Positions 1-17,878 of a DNA stretch of 36,033 nucleotides are shown here, piece by piece. The notes under the pieces are model-generated. The model saw only the letters and a list, made by a program, of their open reading frames with translations. It did not search any database and was not told the DNA's origin. Position numbers and translations under genes: made by a program. The first letter of the stretch is position 1, and every line of letters starts with the position of its first letter. This stretch comes from an uncultured Pelagibacteraceae bacterium (GTDB lineage: Bacteria > Pseudomonadota > Alphaproteobacteria > Pelagibacterales > Pelagibacteraceae): positions 1 through 36,033 of the forward strand of contig CACGMG010000008.1 of the NCBI GenBank assembly GCA_902574045.1, given 5' to 3'.

Positions 1-393
1 AAATTTTCTTTGCTCTTTCTGACTTTTAATTCCAACTTTTCTTATTTCTTCGACAAACTCTACAGCTGATCCATCTAAAATTGGCACTTCAGGTGAGTCA
101 ATTTCGACTAAAGCGTTATCGATTCCCTCTCCAAAAAAAGCAGCCATCAAATGTTCAACAGTAGATACAGTAGCGCCCTGTTTATTTCTTATCTTTGTAC
201 ATAAGATTGGTTCAACTACGTTTTGATAGTTGGCCTCTATTAAATTATTTTCATCTATATCAATTCTACGAAATTTTATACCAAAGTTTTCTTCAGCAGG
301 TTTTATACTTAGATTAACATTTTGACCATTATGCAATCCTATCCCCTTAAAATTAATTTGTTCGTTAATAGTTCTTTGATAATTTTCTGACAT
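1..393 (-). CDS. lpxC: LpxC, UDP-3-O-acyl-N-acetylglucosamine deacetylase (N-terminal part, cut by window edge)
   Basis: This is the first 131 codons of LpxC, the zinc enzyme that removes the acetyl group from UDP-3-O-acyl-GlcNAc in the committed step of lipid A synthesis, in the cytoplasm. The frame is open from ATG (391-393) to base 1. The fragment shows the family's HNGQNV and STVEHLMAAFFGEGIDNAL signatures; H81 matches the first zinc histidine and E80 the adjacent glutamate. It continues with the typical DSPEVPILDGSA segment. The second zinc histidine pair lies outside the window. It follows ftsA by 66 bases in the same direction, the classic end of a proteobacterial dcw cluster except that ftsZ is missing between them. 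The identification is secure; nothing can be said about the C-terminal half. Confidence 0.96.
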   Translation of the reverse strand, partial: MSENYQRTINEQINFKGIGLHNGQNVNLSIKPAEENFGIKFRRIDIDENNLIEANYQNVVEPILCTKIRNKQGATVSTVEHLMAAFFGEGIDNALVEIDSPEVPILDGSAVEFVEEIRKVGIKSQKEQRKF

Positions 394-459: not shown

Positions 460-1656
460 CTATTCAAAGATAGTCTTAAAAATCTTTGTAATTAATGATT
501 TTTTTGTTTGAAGAATTGGAATAGCTTCTTTTTTCCAGCCAAAAACAGACAATTGAGCTGCTTTAATAAATAAAGGCTCAATTTCAAAATTTTTTAATAA
601 GGTTGACTTGTTTTTTAGGTTTTTAGAAAAATAAAAAATAAAATCTTTCTTAAAATTATCTAAAATAATTTCATCTTCTATTATAACATAAATTTTTATT
701 ATTTCATTTTGGAAAGATTTAGTATTGATATTTTTAAATAATATTACATCAGCTATTTCTTCAATTCTTGCCTGAACTATTTCTTTGATTAGTTTTTTTT
801 TTATCTTTCTGTAATTATTATCAAAAAATTTATTTTCGATTAAATCATCCTCTTTTAAATTTTCTTTATCAAAGATTTTGTCCATCAAAATTTTGTTTAT
901 TATTTCATAGTTTAAAGAACATATTTTTGAAACATCCTGTAATAATAAATTTGTCCCAAAATTAAAATTTTCAAGATATCTTAAAGCTGAACTATCAAAA
1001 AAACTAATACTAGAAGAATCTTTTTTTATTTTGATGCAGTAAAAAGTTTCAAAATTCATATCTTTATCTATTAATTGTGTACACTCGATAAAGTTTTTGT
1101 TTATAATTTTTTTGATATTCAAACTATTTTTATTAAATATTTGTTTGATATTTTTTAAATCATTATTCTTAATTAAAAAAAAAGTTAGTTCATGGTTATA
1201 AAAATCTCCAAATAAGCCTATTGGAAGATTATCAGTAATATTTTTATCTAAAACGCTTTTAGAATTGAAAATATGAAGAATGCTTTTGTTTTTCTCATTA
1301 TCTGTAACAGCTAATTTTAATGAATTCAAAATATATGAAATATTTTCTTTAAGAACTTGAGACTGATTCAATCTCTTATATCCTGAAATACTTACACTCG
1401 TACAATTAAATTTATCTAATATAATTATTACTTCTTTAAATATATAATCTAGTTTACTTTCAATAATTTCAACGTTTTTTTTTATTAGTTCAATTGCATT
1501 ATTCAAAACAAGCAATTCATCCTTAAAAAAATTATCTGTTGATGAAATTGTTTTTTCAAGAATTGAAAATTTTAAATCATTATCATAATTCCCTGCAACA
1601 AAAATTATTTCTGACTCATTAATTTCAACAAAAAGTGTAGGAGTTTTATTTGACAT
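460..1656 (-). CDS. ftsA: Divergent FtsA-like cell division protein with degenerate ATP-binding motifs
   Basis: By position (after ftsQ, before lpxC), length (398 aa; family about 400-420) and layout this is FtsA, the actin-like protein that tethers FtsZ to the membrane. The segment at about 125-195 can be laid over the FtsA 1C (SHM) subdomain, with an L-x-H-x-F stretch and a later PIGL stretch. The C-terminus, residues 385-398 (KKSLITKIFKTIFE), is a basic amphipathic helix like the FtsA membrane-targeting sequence. What is odd is the nucleotide site: the phosphate-1 motif (usually DIGSSK-like) reads VEINESE at 10-16, and the phosphate-2 motif (usually DIGGGT) reads IKIKKDS near 208-214. The glycines and aspartates that hold ATP are therefore not visible. 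The gene starts at ATG 1654-1656, five bases after ftsQ. It may be a non-ATP-binding FtsA or an unrelated protein in its place; FtsA is by far the likelier. Confidence 0.75.
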   Translation of the reverse strand: MSNKTPTLFVEINESEIIFVAGNYDNDLKFSILEKTISSTDNFFKDELLVLNNAIELIKKNVEIIESKLDYIFKEVIIILDKFNCTSVSISGYKRLNQSQVLKENISYILNSLKLAVTDNEKNKSILHIFNSKSVLDKNITDNLPIGLFGDFYNHELTFFLIKNNDLKNIKQIFNKNSLNIKKIINKNFIECTQLIDKDMNFETFYCIKIKKDSSSISFFDSSALRYLENFNFGTNLLLQDVSKICSLNYEIINKILMDKIFDKENLKEDDLIENKFFDNNYRKIKKKLIKEIVQARIEEIADVILFKNINTKSFQNEIIKIYVIIEDEIILDNFKKDFIFYFSKNLKNKSTLLKNFEIEPLFIKAAQLSVFGWKKEAIPILQTKKSLITKIFKTIFE

Positions 1657-1661
1657 AGCTA

Positions 1662-2321
1662 CTAGTTAAGTATCAGTTGATCTTTTACTCTATAATCGTA
1701 AATTTTATAATTATTAAAACTGTTGTCATTTGTAGAAATCAAGTAATTTTTTAAGCTAAACATGTAATTTTTTATTGGGAGTTTAATAACTTTGTTTTCT
1801 GTCATAACTAAATCCCACCTACCTGCTTCAAAATAATAAAAAGACTTTATCTTTTCTATTGGGAACTCTATGCGTCTCAGGTTTTTATACAAAGTGTAGA
1901 ATTCTTTTCTGTTGCCCAAAACTGTGGGTAAATCTTTATAAATCTTAATATCTTTGAATTCTAAGAGATCACCTTTATCTGATATATAAAATTTTTCTCT
2001 TTTTTTTTGAAGTATCGCTATAGGTATTTTTTCTTTAATAGTTAATATTAATGTGTCAGGATAAATTTTCTTAATACTAAAACTATCAATAAATGGTTCA
2101 TTTTTAAGACTGTTTTTAATCTCTTGATAATTAAGAAAAAATAAATTCTCTTGAAGCAAAAATCTTAACCTTTGTATTATTTGTTTATCTTCAATTATAA
2201 AATTGTCTTCAACTTTGATATTTTTAATCGAAAGATTAAAGTTTTTATTAAAGTCAATATTTGGTAGGTAAGTTGTAAATAAAATAAAAAGTAAAAAAAA
2301 TCCTATAACTGACTTTTTCAT
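1662..2321 (-). CDS. ftsQ: FtsQ/DivIB-type division protein
   Basis: FtsQ is a bitopic inner-membrane protein that holds FtsL/FtsB in the divisome. The 219-aa product (E. coli 276) has a very short cytoplasmic tail (MKKS), one membrane helix at about 5-21, then a periplasmic POTRA domain at about 30-95: the NLSIKNIKVEDN strand, an I-x-x-L helix region, and the PFIDSFSIKKIYPDTLILTIKEKIPIAI core typical of FtsQ. The following FYISDKGDLLEF stretch matches the start of the beta domain. The ATG (2319-2321) overlaps the ddl stop as ATGA, indicating translational coupling. The sequence is short for the family, mostly because the cytoplasmic tail is minimal. Confidence 0.92.
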   Translation of the reverse strand: MKKSVIGFFLLFILFTTYLPNIDFNKNFNLSIKNIKVEDNFIIEDKQIIQRLRFLLQENLFFLNYQEIKNSLKNEPFIDSFSIKKIYPDTLILTIKEKIPIAILQKKREKFYISDKGDLLEFKDIKIYKDLPTVLGNRKEFYTLYKNLRRIEFPIEKIKSFYYFEAGRWDLVMTENKVIKLPIKNYMFSLKNYLISTNDNSFNNYKIYDYRVKDQLILN

Positions 2322-9022: not shown

Positions 9023-10108
9023 TTATCGAAGTTTAAGAGTTGCTAATCCAACCAAAGCTAAAATTATTGCTATTATCCAAAATCTAATTACAATTGTTGA
9101 CTCTGCCCACCCTTTTTGCTCAAAATGATGATGTATCGGAGCCATTTTGAAAATTCTTTTCCCTGTAAGTTTAAAGGAAATAACTTGAATAATAACTGAT
9201 ACCGTCTCAAGTACAAATAAACCTCCAATAATCGCAAGAACTATCTCATGTTTTGCTATAATGGCCACAGCTGCTAAAGATCCACCTAGTGACAAAGATC
9301 CCGTATCACCCATAAAAATTTTGGCAGGTGGCGCATTATACCAAAGAAAACCTAAGCAAGATCCTACGATTGAACCACAAAATATTGAGAGTTCTCCAAC
9401 GTCAGGAATATATTGTAGCTTAAGATATTCAGAAAAAATTGTATTCCCAACAACATAAGAAATTAAAGTAAAAGATAATGCAACTAGCATCACCGGAACA
9501 GTTGCCAATCCATCCAGCCCATCAGTTAAATTAACAGCATTAGAAGATCCGATTATAACAAATAACGCGAATGGTATAAAAAATAGACCCATTTGCCATA
9601 TTAGATTCTTAAAAAATGGAAAATAAAGGTTATACAAATATTCGTGTTCAGAAAAATTAATTAGTATAAATAAAGTTATTGTACCTATTAATAATTGACC
9701 AAGAAATTTTAATTTTGAATTTAGACCCCTTGAATTTTTCAATTTTATCTTTAACAAATCATCTGTAAATCCCAATATTCCTAAACTTAAAGATACAAAT
9801 ATTAAAGTCCAAATATAAATATTATTTAAATCAGCCCATAGCAATGTGCTCGTGATCATTCCTATTATGATAATTACCCCGCCCATTGTTGGAGTGCCAG
9901 TTTTTTTAATAATATGATCTATCGGTCCGTCTTGCCTTATTGGACCTGTAACCATTTTTTCTGAAAAAATTTTTATTAAGGGTCCACCGATGATAAAAAC
10001 AATTATTAAAGAGGTTACTAATGATAATCCTGTTCGAAAAGTTAGGTATTTAAATACATTAAAAAAAGAATAATGTTCAATTAAGGATGTGAGTAAATTA
10101 AATAACAT
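9023..10108 (-). CDS. mraY: Phospho-N-acetylmuramoyl-pentapeptide transferase (MraY)
   Basis: MraY transfers phospho-MurNAc-pentapeptide from UDP to undecaprenyl phosphate, making lipid I in the inner membrane. The 361-aa protein has about ten membrane helices and all the diagnostic cytoplasmic-loop motifs: GTPTMGGVIII, the DDLLK aspartate pair with NSRGL, NAVNLTDGLDGLA, FMGDTGSLSLGG and the MraY-specific APIHHHFEQKGW histidine cluster. The ATG (10106-10108) overlaps the murEF end by 11 bases. Length and motifs are textbook; E. coli MraY is 360 aa. Confidence 0.98.
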   Translation of the reverse strand: MLFNLLTSLIEHYSFFNVFKYLTFRTGLSLVTSLIIVFIIGGPLIKIFSEKMVTGPIRQDGPIDHIIKKTGTPTMGGVIIIIGMITSTLLWADLNNIYIWTLIFVSLSLGILGFTDDLLKIKLKNSRGLNSKLKFLGQLLIGTITLFILINFSEHEYLYNLYFPFFKNLIWQMGLFFIPFALFVIIGSSNAVNLTDGLDGLATVPVMLVALSFTLISYVVGNTIFSEYLKLQYIPDVGELSIFCGSIVGSCLGFLWYNAPPAKIFMGDTGSLSLGGSLAAVAIIAKHEIVLAIIGGLFVLETVSVIIQVISFKLTGKRIFKMAPIHHHFEQKGWAESTIVIRFWIIAIILALVGLATLKLR

Positions 10109-12869
10109 TTGTTCCTTTTATCATTTCTTTGCTAATAGTGTTTAAACCTGTAGCATTAGATCCTTTTATCATTAAATAATCATTATTAGTGACTATATTT
10201 TTAAAAGTTGCATCTATATCTTGTTTACATTGAAAAATATTTCCTCGTTTATTTTTTTTTAAATATTTGTAAGTAAATAGGCTTTTTTCACCTTTAATAA
10301 AAACTTTATCAATATCCGATCTGTTAATAAGTCTTGATAAATTACTGTGATACTTTTCTGATTTCTCACCAAGCTCTAACATATCGCCTAATAATAAATA
10401 TTTCTTTGAATTGCTCTTATCTATCTTCATAAAGTTTTTAATAGCATTGTGCACTGAAAGTGGATTGGCGTTATAACTTTCATCAATTAAATTAAACGTT
10501 TTTTTATATCTTTTAATTTTATGTATTTGGCCTCTGCCTGCAGATGGTTGAAGTGCTTGAAACAAAGAAAATTTATTCTCTACTTTAATTCCTAATTCTA
10601 ATAATAAAGTTATGGCCGCAAGAATATTATAGATGTTCACATTTCTTATCTTAAATTGAAATTTTTTACTTTTTGCCTTTACAATGATATAATTAAAATC
10701 ATTTTGTTTTTTTACCGATAATAGTTGTACATCTGATTTTTTTGACTTACCAAAAGAAATAACTTTTAATCTTTTTAATTTAGCTTTTTTTGATAGGAGG
10801 TTAAAGAAGTTATCATCACGATTTAAAATCACTGATCCATTTTTTTTTATATTGTCTATTATCTCACCTTTAGCTTTAGCTATACCTTTTATATTTTTAA
10901 AATTTTCAATGTGAGCTTCAGCTATATTAGTAATAATCGCTAAATTTGGTTTAATAATTTTTGAAAGCTTATAAATCTCTCCTGCCTGGCTCATTCCTAC
11001 TTCAAATATTCCTATTTGATGGTCTAGTTCAAGATTTGAAATACTTAGTGGAACTCCGTAATGATTATTGTATGATTTTGGGGAAGCGTATGTTTTTTTA
11101 AAATTTTTAAGCAGGTCATAAATCATGTTTTTTAAAGATGTTTTGCCTGCACTTCCTGTTATTGCTAATATCTTCGCGTTTGACTTTTCTCTTTTAATCT
11201 TAGCAAAACCATTAAGAAAATTATTAACATTTTTTACTTTAATGATTTTTTTGTTTAAATTTTTTTTACTATTACTTGTAATTGCAAAACTAGCGCCCTT
11301 TTGAATTGCTTTTTTAATGAACTGATTTCCATCATTATTTTTTCCCCTGATAGCCAAAAATAAATTATTTTTTTTCACATTTCTTGAGTCTATAGCAATT
11401 CCATTTATCTTATAAAATTTTTTACTTCCTAATAATGAATTTAATATGTTTGAATTAAATTTATAGTTGCTAATTCTTTTGTTAAGTTGTTTTTTTTTAA
11501 TTTTTAATTTTTTTATAATTTGTCTATCGGAAATTAAAATCTTTTTATGTCCATAATCTTGGAAATTTTCATGTCCTTTTCCAGCTACAATTATTGTTTC
11601 GTTTGGTTCAGCTTTAGTCACAGCCTCTTTGATTGCTTTTGAACGATTGCCTATGTCGTAATAGTTGTTTTTTTTAAGATGTCTAATAATTTGAGATCTA
11701 ATTTTTTTTGGATTTTCATTTCTTGGATTATCGTCTGTAACGTAAATCTTTTCACATGATGATTTTGCTATTTTAGCCATTAATGGTCTTTTCTTAAAAT
11801 CTCTTTCACCTCCACATCCAAATACAATTGAAATTTTATTTCTATTTTGTTGTTTTAAAGATCTTATGGCCTCATTTAGAGCCTCTGGGGTGTGAGCATA
11901 ATCTACGTATACTTTTACATTGTTAGGAAGTGTTCTTACTAATTCTAATCTTCCTTCAACATGTTTAATTTTTTTTATAATTTTTTTAATTTTTAGGTTA
12001 TCTAATTTACTTAATTTTGCAGCTATGGTTGCCATAATCAAATTTTTTGTTTGAAAAGTATTAGAGAATATCTTTGGTATATCGGTAGTATTAAATTTTT
12101 CTTTTGAGGAATCAAAAAGTTTCAATTTTCTTTTTTTTGAAATTTTTTTTAAAATTGAAAATTCTTTAGATGATCCGTCAGCTATGATACTACTTTTTTT
12201 AGGTAATAATTTTTTAAATAATATCAATTTTGAATTTAAATAGGCTTTCATTGTTTTATGATAATCAAGGTGGTCCTGGCTAAAATTTGTAAAAATACCT
12301 ACGTTAAAATTTAGTTTATCTAGTCTATTTTGTTTTAAACCATGGCTGGATGCTTCGATAATAACGTTGTCAACCTTTTTCTTTTTTAGTATCTCGAGAT
12401 TTTTATGAAGTGTAATTATGTCTGGAGACGTAAGATTAGTTTTGATTCTCATATTTTTTGACTTAACTCCAAAAGTACCTACTGAAGCTACAGGTATATT
12501 GTAAGAATTCAATATTTGATAATAAAAATCAGCGACAGATGTTTTGCCGTTAGTCCCAGTAACTGCAATTAAATTTTTTGGTTTTAACTTGTAAAAATTT
12601 GAAACAGTTTCACTAAGATAATCTCTTATTTTCTTAGTTTTAATTATACCTATCTTGTTACTTTTAAACTTACATTTATTTGAACAAATGATTAATTTAG
12701 CTCCTTGCTTAATAGCTTGATGAATATAGTTCTCTCCGTTTGTTTTGCTTCCTTTCAATGCAAAAAAGATGAAGCCCTTTTTAATATCTTTGCTGTTTAA
12801 AGATATGCCAGAGATCTTCAAATTTTTGAGATTTTTTGGAGAATTCTTAATTAGATTTTTTAGCAACAT
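10098..12869 (-). CDS. murE-murF: Fused MurE-MurF: UDP-MurNAc-tripeptide ligase plus D-Ala-D-Ala-adding ligase
   Basis: One uninterrupted 923-aa frame holds two Mur ligases. Residues 1 to about 455 are MurE: P-loop TGTNGKT at 104-110, NFSQDHLDYH near 195-204, YVDYAHTPEAL near 321, the DNPR motif at 380-383 that marks meso-diaminopimelate as substrate, and KGHE at 431-434. After a short basic linker (about 456-472), residues 473-923 are MurF: GIAIDSRNVKK, P-loop TGSAGKT at 571-577, SYNNHYGVPL, NIAEAHIENF and DESYNANPLS. MurE adds meso-DAP and MurF adds D-Ala-D-Ala, consecutive cytoplasmic steps. There is no stop or start-like break at the junction (near 11453-11505). MurE-MurF fusions are known elsewhere, for example in Bordetella. 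It overlaps ftsI by 23 bases and mraY by 11. Confidence 0.95.
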   Translation of the reverse strand: MLLKNLIKNSPKNLKNLKISGISLNSKDIKKGFIFFALKGSKTNGENYIHQAIKQGAKLIICSNKCKFKSNKIGIIKTKKIRDYLSETVSNFYKLKPKNLIAVTGTNGKTSVADFYYQILNSYNIPVASVGTFGVKSKNMRIKTNLTSPDIITLHKNLEILKKKKVDNVIIEASSHGLKQNRLDKLNFNVGIFTNFSQDHLDYHKTMKAYLNSKLILFKKLLPKKSSIIADGSSKEFSILKKISKKRKLKLFDSSKEKFNTTDIPKIFSNTFQTKNLIMATIAAKLSKLDNLKIKKIIKKIKHVEGRLELVRTLPNNVKVYVDYAHTPEALNEAIRSLKQQNRNKISIVFGCGGERDFKKRPLMAKIAKSSCEKIYVTDDNPRNENPKKIRSQIIRHLKKNNYYDIGNRSKAIKEAVTKAEPNETIIVAGKGHENFQDYGHKKILISDRQIIKKLKIKKKQLNKRISNYKFNSNILNSLLGSKKFYKINGIAIDSRNVKKNNLFLAIRGKNNDGNQFIKKAIQKGASFAITSNSKKNLNKKIIKVKNVNNFLNGFAKIKREKSNAKILAITGSAGKTSLKNMIYDLLKNFKKTYASPKSYNNHYGVPLSISNLELDHQIGIFEVGMSQAGEIYKLSKIIKPNLAIITNIAEAHIENFKNIKGIAKAKGEIIDNIKKNGSVILNRDDNFFNLLSKKAKLKRLKVISFGKSKKSDVQLLSVKKQNDFNYIIVKAKSKKFQFKIRNVNIYNILAAITLLLELGIKVENKFSLFQALQPSAGRGQIHKIKRYKKTFNLIDESYNANPLSVHNAIKNFMKIDKSNSKKYLLLGDMLELGEKSEKYHSNLSRLINRSDIDKVFIKGEKSLFTYKYLKKNKRGNIFQCKQDIDATFKNIVTNNDYLMIKGSNATGLNTISKEMIKGTNVI

Positions 12870-15914: not shown

Positions 15915-17417
15915 TTAAAATTTTTGTTTTCTCAAAAAGGCAGGAATTTCAAAATCTTCTTCCTCGCTTGAGTCTTGATCAAAAAGTTTATCATTATGAT
16001 TATCAATTGGATCATCTTGTTGAGCTTCAGCTTGAGTCATTTTTTCTTCCTCAAATAATTGAGGGGTGTGTTCTTCCTCATTAAGTGCGCTGGAGTGAAG
16101 ATCGATTCTGCTGTCATTGTCTATTTTAGTAGTATCAACCGCAGTGGAGTTTTCAATATATGATGCATTTTCCATTGAAACTCCGTTGGGAATATTATCA
16201 ATATTTGTTTCAACAGTAGAATTGTCATTTTTTTCTGGAATAAAATTTGGGTCCAAGTCGTTGACAAAATTTTCATTTATCTTGTTATTAACTTCAAACT
16301 TTTCATCCAATTTTAGGGCTGTAGCCCCTTCAATAGATCCTAGGGTATTGTTATCTACATTCATATTTTGTGAAAATAGTCCCTCAGAATTGTTGCCATT
16401 TCTATTATGAATTCGAGAAACCATATTTAGAACTGTATTAGATGCAGTTGTTTGTCCATCTAAAGCAGTTGCTACTATAGAAACTCTCATTTTTCCCGCC
16501 ATATTTTCATCTTTGATGGCACCAAAAATTAATTCAACTTCAGGGTCAACCTCAGCTCTTACTTTTTGAACTGTTTGATCAACTTCAAACAAAGTTAAAT
16601 CTTTTCCCCCTGTTATATTTATCAGCAATCCTTTTGCACCTTTAAGAGAATATTCATCTATTAATGGATTATTCAAAGCCATTTCAGTTGCTGCAGTAGC
16701 TCTGTTTTCGCCCTCTGCTTCTCCTGTTCCCATCATAGCTTTGCCCATTGAACTCATTACAGTTTCTACATCAGCAAAATCTAAATTAATCATTCCCGGT
16801 CTAACCATTAAATCTGTTACGCTTTGTACTCCATGTCTCAAAACATTATTTGAAAGATGGAACGACTCTTCAAAAGTTGTAGTTTCACTTGCTATCTTAA
16901 AGAGATTTTGATTAGGCACAACTATTGTGGTGTCTAAATGTTTTTTTAATGCCTCTAATCCCTCTTGAGCTCTTCTCATCCTTTTTGAGCCTTCATAATC
17001 AAAAGGCAATGTGGTGACTCCAACAGTTAAGATATTCAATTCTTTTGCAGCTTTAGCAATTACGTGAGAAGCGCCTGTACCAGTTCCTCCACCCATTCCA
17101 GCTGCAATAAAAACCATATTACTTCCCTGAATGTAGTTGGCTATTTCACTTATAGATTCATCTGCTGCTGCTTGACCAATATTATGTTTTGCTCCAGCAC
17201 CAAGACCTTTAGTCAAGTTCATTCCTATTTGAATTTTAGCGTGTGCTTTACTCATTTTTAAATCTTGAGCATCAGTGTTTATTGCAACAAACTCTACCCC
17301 TTCCATACCAGACTCTATCATTGCATTAATTGCATTTCCGCCTGCTCCACCAATTCCTAATACTAAAATCCTTGGTTTTAATTCCCTTAGTTCTCCTCCT
17401 CCAATATTTATACTCAT
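15915..17417 (-). CDS. ftsZ: FtsZ, tubulin-like division GTPase
   Basis: FtsZ polymerises at midcell with GTP to form the division ring. The GTPase core (about 13-325) has GIGGAGGNAINAM, NTDAQDL, the tubulin signature GGGTGTG at 109-115, and the T7 synergy loop NLDFADVETVM that completes GTP hydrolysis. A long acidic, Asn-rich linker (about 335-483) follows, and the C-terminus ends in EIPAFLRKQKF, the conserved peptide that binds FtsA and other partners. At 500 aa it is longer than E. coli FtsZ (383) because of the linker, a common alphaproteobacterial trait. The ATG overlaps the mraZ stop as ATGA, so it is coupled to mraZ. Its location between mraZ and rsmH, not after ftsA, is unusual. Confidence 0.98.
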   Translation of the reverse strand: MSINIGGGELRELKPRILVLGIGGAGGNAINAMIESGMEGVEFVAINTDAQDLKMSKAHAKIQIGMNLTKGLGAGAKHNIGQAAADESISEIANYIQGSNMVFIAAGMGGGTGTGASHVIAKAAKELNILTVGVTTLPFDYEGSKRMRRAQEGLEALKKHLDTTIVVPNQNLFKIASETTTFEESFHLSNNVLRHGVQSVTDLMVRPGMINLDFADVETVMSSMGKAMMGTGEAEGENRATAATEMALNNPLIDEYSLKGAKGLLINITGGKDLTLFEVDQTVQKVRAEVDPEVELIFGAIKDENMAGKMRVSIVATALDGQTTASNTVLNMVSRIHNRNGNNSEGLFSQNMNVDNNTLGSIEGATALKLDEKFEVNNKINENFVNDLDPNFIPEKNDNSTVETNIDNIPNGVSMENASYIENSTAVDTTKIDNDSRIDLHSSALNEEEHTPQLFEEEKMTQAEAQQDDPIDNHNDKLFDQDSSEEEDFEIPAFLRKQKF

Positions 17418-17878
17418 ATTATCTCCCCTTTCTGTTTATTTTCCCACTTGAGACTTGACCTATTGTGATATGCCTTTTTTCTCGCCACCATTTTAAATTT
17501 TTCAAATATTTTTGGTTCCCAAATTTGAAAGGTTTTGCCTAAGCCTACAAATAAAATATTGTTTTTTATTTTCGCGTGATTAAGTAATTTGCTAGTTAAA
17601 GATACTCTTCCCTCAGTATCGAATTGTAAATTTACACTTTCAGATAATATTGAAGTAGCAAAATAATCCCTTTTTTCTTCAAACGGATTAAGAGAATCTA
17701 TTGTATTTGATAATTTTTCTATTCTATCTTGAGAGCATGCTTCTAAAGCTGAATGGTTAAAAGAGGGATAAGTGATAAATCCATTATAACCCATAGAATT
17801 TAAATGTGATCTAAAAGTTGAAGGCACAGACACCCTCCCTTTTTTGTCCAGTTTGTTTTCGAAACTTGATAAAAACAT
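17414..17878 (-). CDS. mraZ: MraZ, AbrB-like transcriptional regulator of the dcw operon
   Basis: MraZ is a ring-forming DNA-binding protein that in E. coli represses its own dcw promoter. The 154-aa product (E. coli 152) has two swapped-hairpin AbrB-like repeats, each with the D-x-x-x-R type motif: LDKKGRVSVPSTFR near residue 11 and FDTEGRVSLTSKLL near residue 87. ATG 17876-17878 is preceded by AAAGGA at short spacing. It is the first protein gene of the cluster; three TGGG boxes and a sigma70-type promoter lie 43-84 bases upstream, as expected for autoregulation. It is translationally coupled to ftsZ, so MraZ level and FtsZ level should be linked here. Confidence 0.95.
   Translation of the reverse strand: MFLSSFENKLDKKGRVSVPSTFRSHLNSMGYNGFITYPSFNHSALEACSQDRIEKLSNTIDSLNPFEEKRDYFATSILSESVNLQFDTEGRVSLTSKLLNHAKIKNNILFVGLGKTFQIWEPKIFEKFKMVARKKAYHNRSSLKWENKQKGEII

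Follow-up and report, generated by a model that had tools for sequence, protein, structure and literature searches.

A conserved FtsA of the Pelagibacteraceae that has lost the residues of its nucleotide pocket

In an uncultured member of the Pelagibacteraceae, the gene that follows ftsQ in the cluster for cell division and the cell wall, where ftsA is expected, encodes a protein in which the ATP-binding loops of FtsA can hardly be recognized. Is this protein an FtsA, and how could it act in cell division if it does not bind ATP? We addressed these questions with a DNA stretch of 36,033 nucleotides, here called the window, that starts with the first base of contig 8 in the source genome (722 kb, 67% complete; GenBank assembly GCA_902574045.1, contig CACGMG010000008.1), and with the genomes of relatives. 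The latter are grouped as g1 (the genus of the window), g5 to g9 (genera of the same family, f1) and f2 (another family of the same order). The gene lies beside ftsQ and likewise beside ddl, and ftsZ belongs to the same cluster without being adjacent (Table 1). The distance between ftsA and ftsZ, about 14-16 kb, recurs in the g1, g5, g6 and f2 genomes for which coordinates were compared. Instead of following ftsA, ftsZ stands at the opposite end of the cluster, where it adjoins an mraZ-like ORF (17414-17878, recognized by eye), and a 923-aa ORF at 10098-12869 appears, also by eye, to be a fusion of MurE-like and MurF-like ligases.

Table 1. Features of the window (positions are those of the window; residue numbers refer to the FtsA-derived protein unless E. 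coli is named)
Feature	Position	Strand	Remarks
ftsA-derived gene	460..1656	(-)	398 aa, ATG start, intact frame; nucleotide pocket lost; TIGR01174, hhalign and E. coli FtsA profile matches
ftsQ	1662..2321	(-)	POTRA domain, E 5e-11; adjoins the ftsA-derived gene
lpxC-like start	1..393	(-)	truncated at the contig end; identified by eye
ftsZ	15915..17417	(-)	500 aa; same gene cluster, far from ftsA
FtsZ C-terminal peptide DFEIPAFLRKQKF	15918..15956	(-)	intact
Former phosphate-1 (VEINESE, residues 10-16)	1609..1629	(-)	E. coli Gly16 and Lys19 lost
Former phosphate-2 (IKIKKDS, residues 208-214)	1015..1035	(-)	E. coli Asp210, Gly212 and Gly214 lost
Former E..K element (residues 253-257)	886..900	(-)	E. 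coli E255/K258; lost
Former adenosine loop (residues 323-332)	661..690	(-)	E. coli Gly336/337 lost in 33/33
Lys187 (near-Mg position)	1096..1098	(-)	E. coli Ala188; Lys in 32/33 g1 and in the single g9 sequence
Asp81 (near-Mg position)	1414..1416	(-)	E. coli Ser84; in g1 Asp 17, Asn 9, Glu 5 of 33
Subdomain 1C region (residues 86-160)	1177..1401	(-)	best conserved region measured in g1; mean pairwise identity 0.61 vs 0.44 overall
2B helix region (residues 283-303)	748..810	(-)	Arg297 and Glu300, the equivalents of E. coli R300/E303, present in 33/33
C-terminal amphipathic helix (residues 385-398)	463..504	(-)	presumed membrane anchor; last 14 residues KKSLITKIFKTIFE

The gene, which codes for 398 aa and is flanked by ftsQ and lpxC, is an ftsA by descent. 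A search with FtsA models, which a preliminary description of this DNA had recommended, gave a match of NCBIfam TIGR01174 to residues 10-324 (E 3.2e-21), though with 75.8 bits it stays below the curated cut-off of 175.85, and Pfam SHS2_FTSA did not match. A single-sequence search with the window protein reached FtsA structures (E 6e-5), and a profile built from 33 full-length g1 proteins matched E. coli FtsA (7q6d) over residues 9-316 with an E-value of 1.7e-16. Alignment of the g1 profile by hhalign with 23 alphaproteobacterial FtsA sequences (23 of the 30 outgroup rows, all 30 being used for the tables) was collinear over 361 columns (E 6e-12) and included the SHS2/1C place, which is strongly conserved in g1. 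Because of this collinearity the pocket loops have not moved elsewhere in the protein, and no intact phosphate loops were found at other places. The preliminary description had also considered that a new protein has taken the place of FtsA. Pfam FtsA (PF14450) indeed finds no match in the genome of the window, and no Pfam family reaches its cut-off with the window protein, but the profile homology, the collinear alignment and the neighbouring ftsQ argue for descent from FtsA, and replacement by an unrelated protein at the ftsQ-lpxC position can hardly be maintained. AlphaFold modelling of the window protein and two relatives gave a mean pLDDT of 38.6, too low for the model to be used. A scan of genome contigs recovered two uncultured Pelagibacteraceae relatives, one with 55% identity to the window protein and one with 59% for a 219-aa fragment, and one doubtful match from Nitrospinota (27% over about 117 residues); the viral contigs scanned held no stretch encoding a relative.

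The motifs of the nucleotide pocket were located by alignment with 30 canonical alphaproteobacterial FtsA proteins and E. coli FtsA. This placed VEINESE (10-16) at phosphate-1 and IKIKKDS (208-214) at phosphate-2, as read before, and showed that the window protein has lost the equivalents of G16, K19, D210, G212, G214, G236, E255, K258, G336 and G337 (E. coli numbering); the losses in the adenosine loop, the E..K pair (E255/K258) and G236 go beyond the two loops named earlier. The proposed loss of the ATP-binding motifs thus holds for the pocket as a whole but not for the acidic residue of phosphate-1, which is Glu in 28 of 33 g1 sequences and is no loss by itself, since E. coli has Glu at this place as well (E14). 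The g1 sample consists of 33 full-length sequences, the window protein and 32 others that are 35-54% identical to it; a 69-aa fragment (L030) and four loci cut by contig ends (L032, L062, L111, L112) were left out of the 107-row alignment. Across these 33 sequences the outgroup residue survives only sporadically at G16, K19 and D210 (1/33 each), G212 (5/33) and E255 (4/33), and nowhere at G214, G236, K258, G336 and G337 (0/33 each).

To scale these losses, 90 columns that are at least 90% conserved in the 30 outgroup alphaproteobacteria were compared, 11 of which were assigned to the nucleotide site on the basis of its motifs (E. coli E14, G16, K19, D210, G212, G214, G236, E255, K258, G336 and G337). 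The g1 proteins keep the outgroup residue in 3.6% of cases at the 11 pocket columns versus 25% at the 79 other conserved columns, and 601 of 20,000 random draws of columns came out as low, so the pocket was lost preferentially. By these alignments the nucleotide pocket is gone across the genus, and from this we infer that ATP binding is absent. Composition bias was rejected as the cause: MreB of one congener (G021) retains DLGTAN, DIGGGTTE and LTGGG, and these canonical motifs speak against AT bias behind the loss in FtsA. Nor is loss of the pocket common to divergent FtsA proteins of alphaproteobacteria at large; in seven divergent outgroup proteins the adenosine glycines are kept in 7/7, while some of them vary in phosphate-1 or phosphate-2.

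Regional conservation within g1 points in the same direction. Phosphate-1 (mean pairwise identity 0.36), phosphate-2 (0.35), the E..K element (0.27) and the adenosine loop (0.27) are the least conserved regions measured, against 0.59 for 2B, 0.55 for the tail and 0.44 for the whole protein, whereas in the outgroup the pocket regions reach 0.66-0.75 with 0.51 for the whole protein. This bears on the possibility that the protein still has non-canonical nucleotide binding, based on residues newly acquired in the cleft. Two fairly conserved positions in phosphate-1 (Glu in 28/33, Asn in 24/33) and a fixed lysine that could bind phosphate would suit such binding, but pocket regions at 0.27-0.36 in a protein at 0.44 are the opposite of what a ligand pocket would look like, and we regard it as improbable.

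The gene is under purifying selection and is not decaying. The earlier suggestion to examine selection on the ftsQ-lpxC gene in related genomes was followed, and Nei-Gojobori dN/dS ratios were 0.14-0.23 in seven g1 pairs, which were chosen among close sequences and not at random; four of the seven ratios are rough since dS exceeds 1. An AT-rich, divergent sequence that no Pfam family claims above its cut-off could also reflect gene decay or faulty assembly. Against this, all 33 full-length g1 frames measure 395-400 aa (rows cut by contig ends were set aside), the matches examined contain zero internal stops, the dN/dS ratios are low, and the same pocket-less state occurs in many separate assemblies, which makes decay or artefact a very remote explanation.

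Outside the pocket several parts of FtsA have been retained. The C-terminal amphipathic helix (385-398) is present, as had been described; its hydrophobic moment of 0.70 is reached by only 2 of the 388 11-mers of the protein, the tail itself included, and compares with 0.59-0.90 in g1 and 0.78 in E. coli FtsA. The equivalents of E. coli R300, E303, E69, H129 and D242 are each present in 33/33 g1 sequences. We take the 2B helix with E. coli R300/E303 to be the contact site for the FtsZ peptide; a literature search for this role of the helix found none. The limits of 1C in the window protein (residues 86-160) are approximate. The C-terminal peptide of FtsZ is the usual ligand of FtsA, and it reads FEIPAFLR[KR]QKF in 13/13 g1 genomes and in the one g9 genome, and LEIPAFLRRQTN in g5, g7 and g8 (7/7). 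In f2, 14 of 21 FtsZ frames end in LEIP[SA]FLRRQSK and the other 7 stop earlier. The terminal Phe of the FtsZ tail was seen only in g1 and g9 among the groups read (loci L085-L093 and L163-L167), and Phe before EIP occurs also in three g6 genomes (G074, G112, G141) of the half-FtsA type described below. In g1 and g9 this ending of FtsZ is possibly coupled to the altered FtsA.

The window protein therefore resembles the FtsA of E. coli, Thermotoga and alphaproteobacteria (TIGR01174) in descent, position after ftsQ, collinear alignment, the Arg/Glu pair of 2B, the C-terminal amphipathic helix and the presence of the FtsZ peptide in the cell, but differs by its lost nucleotide-contact motifs, its TIGR01174 score below cut-off and the missing Pfam FtsA match. 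Since the phosphate-1, phosphate-2 and adenosine motifs could not be recognized in it, we list it as an FtsA by descent and not as an actin-like ATPase.

The loss of the pocket generates a problem for FtsA function. PMC10213515 reports that E. coli FtsA residues E14, S84, A188, D210 and Y375 lie 2-8 Å from the Mg ion, that the E14R and S84L variants bind phospholipid robustly without ATP, that A188V retains 19% of the ATPase activity and that E14R, S84L, A188V and D210A do not complement. If these mutants fail, pocket loss in g1 would have to be compensated. Candidates are found at the near-Mg positions (Table 1), where position 11 (E. coli E14) is Glu or Asp in 29/33 g1 sequences; the sole g1 sequence lacking Lys at 188, L098, has Glu there and Asn at both 14 and 84. 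Lys187 may be salt-bridged in the old Mg site and replace Mg-ATP, although g1 FtsA is rich in lysine and has other conserved lysines. The window protein is like the E14R and S84L variants of PMC10213515 in that near-Mg residues are altered; membrane binding without ATP, reported there for the mutants, would be predicted for it. Those variants, as that source presents them, are laboratory products that do not complement, whereas the window protein is natural and conserved.

The history of the pocket can be followed across the Pelagibacterales. The single g9 sequence, which comes from one genome, lacks the motifs that are missing in g1 but keeps a Lys at K19. The full-length FtsA of g6 (13 rows), in contrast, keeps 79% at the pocket columns and 27% elsewhere, with none of 20,000 draws higher. 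In g8 (58% vs 39% elsewhere) and f2 (42% vs 47% elsewhere) the values are unremarkable against random draws, and as the f2 pocket is no better kept than other conserved columns, it is g6 and, to a lesser degree, g8 that carry the contrast with g1. The draws suggest that the pocket is held by selection in full-length g6 FtsA and was lost in g1. The orthologues from g5, g7, g8, full-length g6 and f2 share with the window protein the absence of the last two phosphate-2 glycines, which are already lost in the aligned FtsA of Pelagibacterales, but they differ from it in keeping the phosphate-1 Asp and Gly (in most f2 sequences without the Gly) and the first adenosine Gly. Within f2 the FtsA loci L037-L060 (without L040) show an apparently separate and partial pocket decay, in which Gly16 is changed to Arg in 20/23 and the phosphate-2 glycines are lost, while adenosine Gly336 is kept in 23/23. 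The missing phosphate-2 glycines across the aligned Pelagibacterales and the Arg at Gly16 in f2 suggest that decay of the pocket began early. On an FtsZ tree, for which the program gave a long-branch warning, g9 and g1 form a clade (support 100/99), as do g9, g1 and g6 (100/99), and g6 itself has 86/80. The simplest history would be one pocket loss in the common ancestor of g1 and g9.

In genus g6 a different change was found. Of the 48 g6 genomes sampled from the order, at least 30 encode a half-FtsA of about 234 aa from which domain 2 is absent. Fourteen of the 48 had a TIGR01174 match in the FtsA frame, one of them (L112) a fragment, and a g6 profile matched 33 of the remaining 34; in G083, without match, a contig end intervenes, and G075 and G149 gave matches to the tail only. 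The 30 half-FtsA loci (L176-L205, L203 being truncated by a contig end and L204 split in two frames) have lengths of 222-245 aa in 28/30 frames. The frames match the g6 profile as far as about position 181-205, and the match resumes at about 343-367 and reaches the end, the part between being unmatched. In an alignment of these frames with E. coli FtsA, from which the two of the 30 that fall below 200 aa were omitted, residues 208 to 330 are missing in 28/28; domain 2, with phosphate-2, the adenosine loop and 2B, is deleted. Among the matches listed for the 34 profile-searched g6 genomes (E <=0.01) there was no separate domain-2 match.

The half-FtsA genes have dN/dS ratios of 0.14-0.30 in nine chosen pairs. 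Pfam SHS2_FTSA (PF02491) matches the SHS2/1C part in L176 (E 1.7e-6), and L192 and L198 have no Pfam match; the tail is amphipathic (hydrophobic moment 0.53-0.62), Glu and His stand at E. coli E69 and H129 in 28/28 as in g1, and in the single-contig genome G062 the gene lies between ftsQ and a Pfam-confirmed lpxC. The half-FtsA is thus like the window FtsA in its SHS2/1C part, the invariant Glu and His, the amphipathic tail, the lack of an ATP cleft and its ftsQ-lpxC position (G062), but unlike it has 2A and 2B deleted and hence no FtsZ site in 2B. The half state requires five changes on a second, quick FtsZ tree, at least three of them forced by well-supported branches, and repeated deletion, or deletion together with exchange, is therefore likely. 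Taken with g1 and g9, this makes it somewhat more plausible than not that FtsA of the Pelagibacteraceae ceased to be an ATPase by two routes: point erosion with a lysine in place of Mg-ATP in g1 and g9, and apparently repeated deletion of domain 2 in g6. All 25 half-FtsA g6 genomes on the quick FtsZ tree keep the FtsZ peptide [LF]EIPAFLRRQ. Because it persists there without 2B, conservation of the peptide alone is no proof of FtsA binding, and in these genomes it must be used by some other partner or by another face of FtsA.

Other proteins that could share or take over the work of FtsA were searched for. SepF (PF04472) was found in 0/23 genomes, 8 of them from g1 and the window's own genome not among them, while the control matched 7/14, and SepF was therefore dismissed as a replacement membrane tether. 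SPOR, taken as stand-in for FtsN, gave weak and uninformative matches in 5/19 genomes, so that FtsN is a putative partner in g1. Seven g1 genomes with 94-98% completeness (G021, G034, G036, G077, G079, G106 and G130) have three TIGR01174 matches each; among the matches listed are the FtsA-like gene and, in 6/7, one match over about profile positions 170-346, which in G021 and G036 is MreB according to a Pfam scan, and no second canonical FtsA. The g1 congeners without an FtsA match (G003, G005, G012, G023, G027, G029 and G031) are all at most 86% complete, and in G012, G023, G027 and G029 ftsA would be expected, about 16 kb from ftsZ, beyond the end of the contig. As the source genome is 67% complete, other tethers are possible in the organism of the window.

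Based on the retained parts, the window protein is probably an ATP-free FtsA, a nucleotide-free adaptor with its tail in the membrane that would bind FtsZ by its 2B region and other partners by 1C. The C-terminal helix would sit in the membrane independently of ATP, the 2B region would hold the C-terminal peptide of FtsZ and 1C would dock partner proteins, perhaps further copies of FtsA. Lacking Mg-ATP, the protein would be fixed in one conformation, with Lys187 beside the old Mg site and near the acidic position 11 standing in for Mg-ATP. The combination of pocket loss with a kept tail, the 2B Arg/Glu pair and the FtsZ peptide fits an FtsZ-membrane adaptor without nucleotide-driven assembly, as the preliminary description had suggested for this lineage; its word 'simple' may, however, understate the protein, as 1C is the best conserved region measured.

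The main rival reading moves the weight to 1C: the protein would be a docking platform at the membrane for FtsQ, FtsN and others, tethering of FtsZ would be a side activity or the task of a different protein, and domain 2 would be a vanishing remnant. The high conservation of 1C (0.61), together with the g6 genomes (at least 30/48) in which 1A/1C and the tail are all that remains, makes docking by 1C look at least as important as tethering. According to PMC7613929, 1C is the binding site of the FtsN tail, forms the lateral contact in the filament and may be positioned to meet FtsQ, and PMC5508204 says that late divisome proteins are recruited by 1C; the role in FtsN binding and lateral contact given by PMC7613929 fits the retention of 1C in g1 and in half-FtsA. 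Arg297 and Glu300, present in 33/33, and a 2B identity of 0.59 nevertheless indicate continued selection on domain 2 in g1, and with the weak SPOR matches FtsN is no more than a putative partner, for which reason we consider a platform of this kind rather unlikely and propose to regard the window protein as an ATP-free adaptor between FtsZ, the membrane and the partners of 1C.

In titles and abstract openings of the open-access literature there was no description of a SAR11 or Pelagibacter FtsA, nor of degenerate, ATP-independent or truncated FtsA like these, and none in those of papers on SAR11 cell-cycle genes. For FtsA, ATP may serve polymer formation, a timing switch or control of the membrane. 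A conserved pocket-less FtsA beside relatives that keep the pocket and relatives without domain 2 offers a direct comparative test of which functions of FtsA are indispensable, and the comparison points to 1C and the membrane tail as the irreducible core. If FtsA has indeed ceased to be an ATPase by the two routes given above, some of the most abundant marine bacteria would divide without the nucleotide cycle of FtsA, and the half-FtsA lineages without its FtsZ-binding domain. A division step that was thought to need ATP may thus run without ATP in these bacteria.
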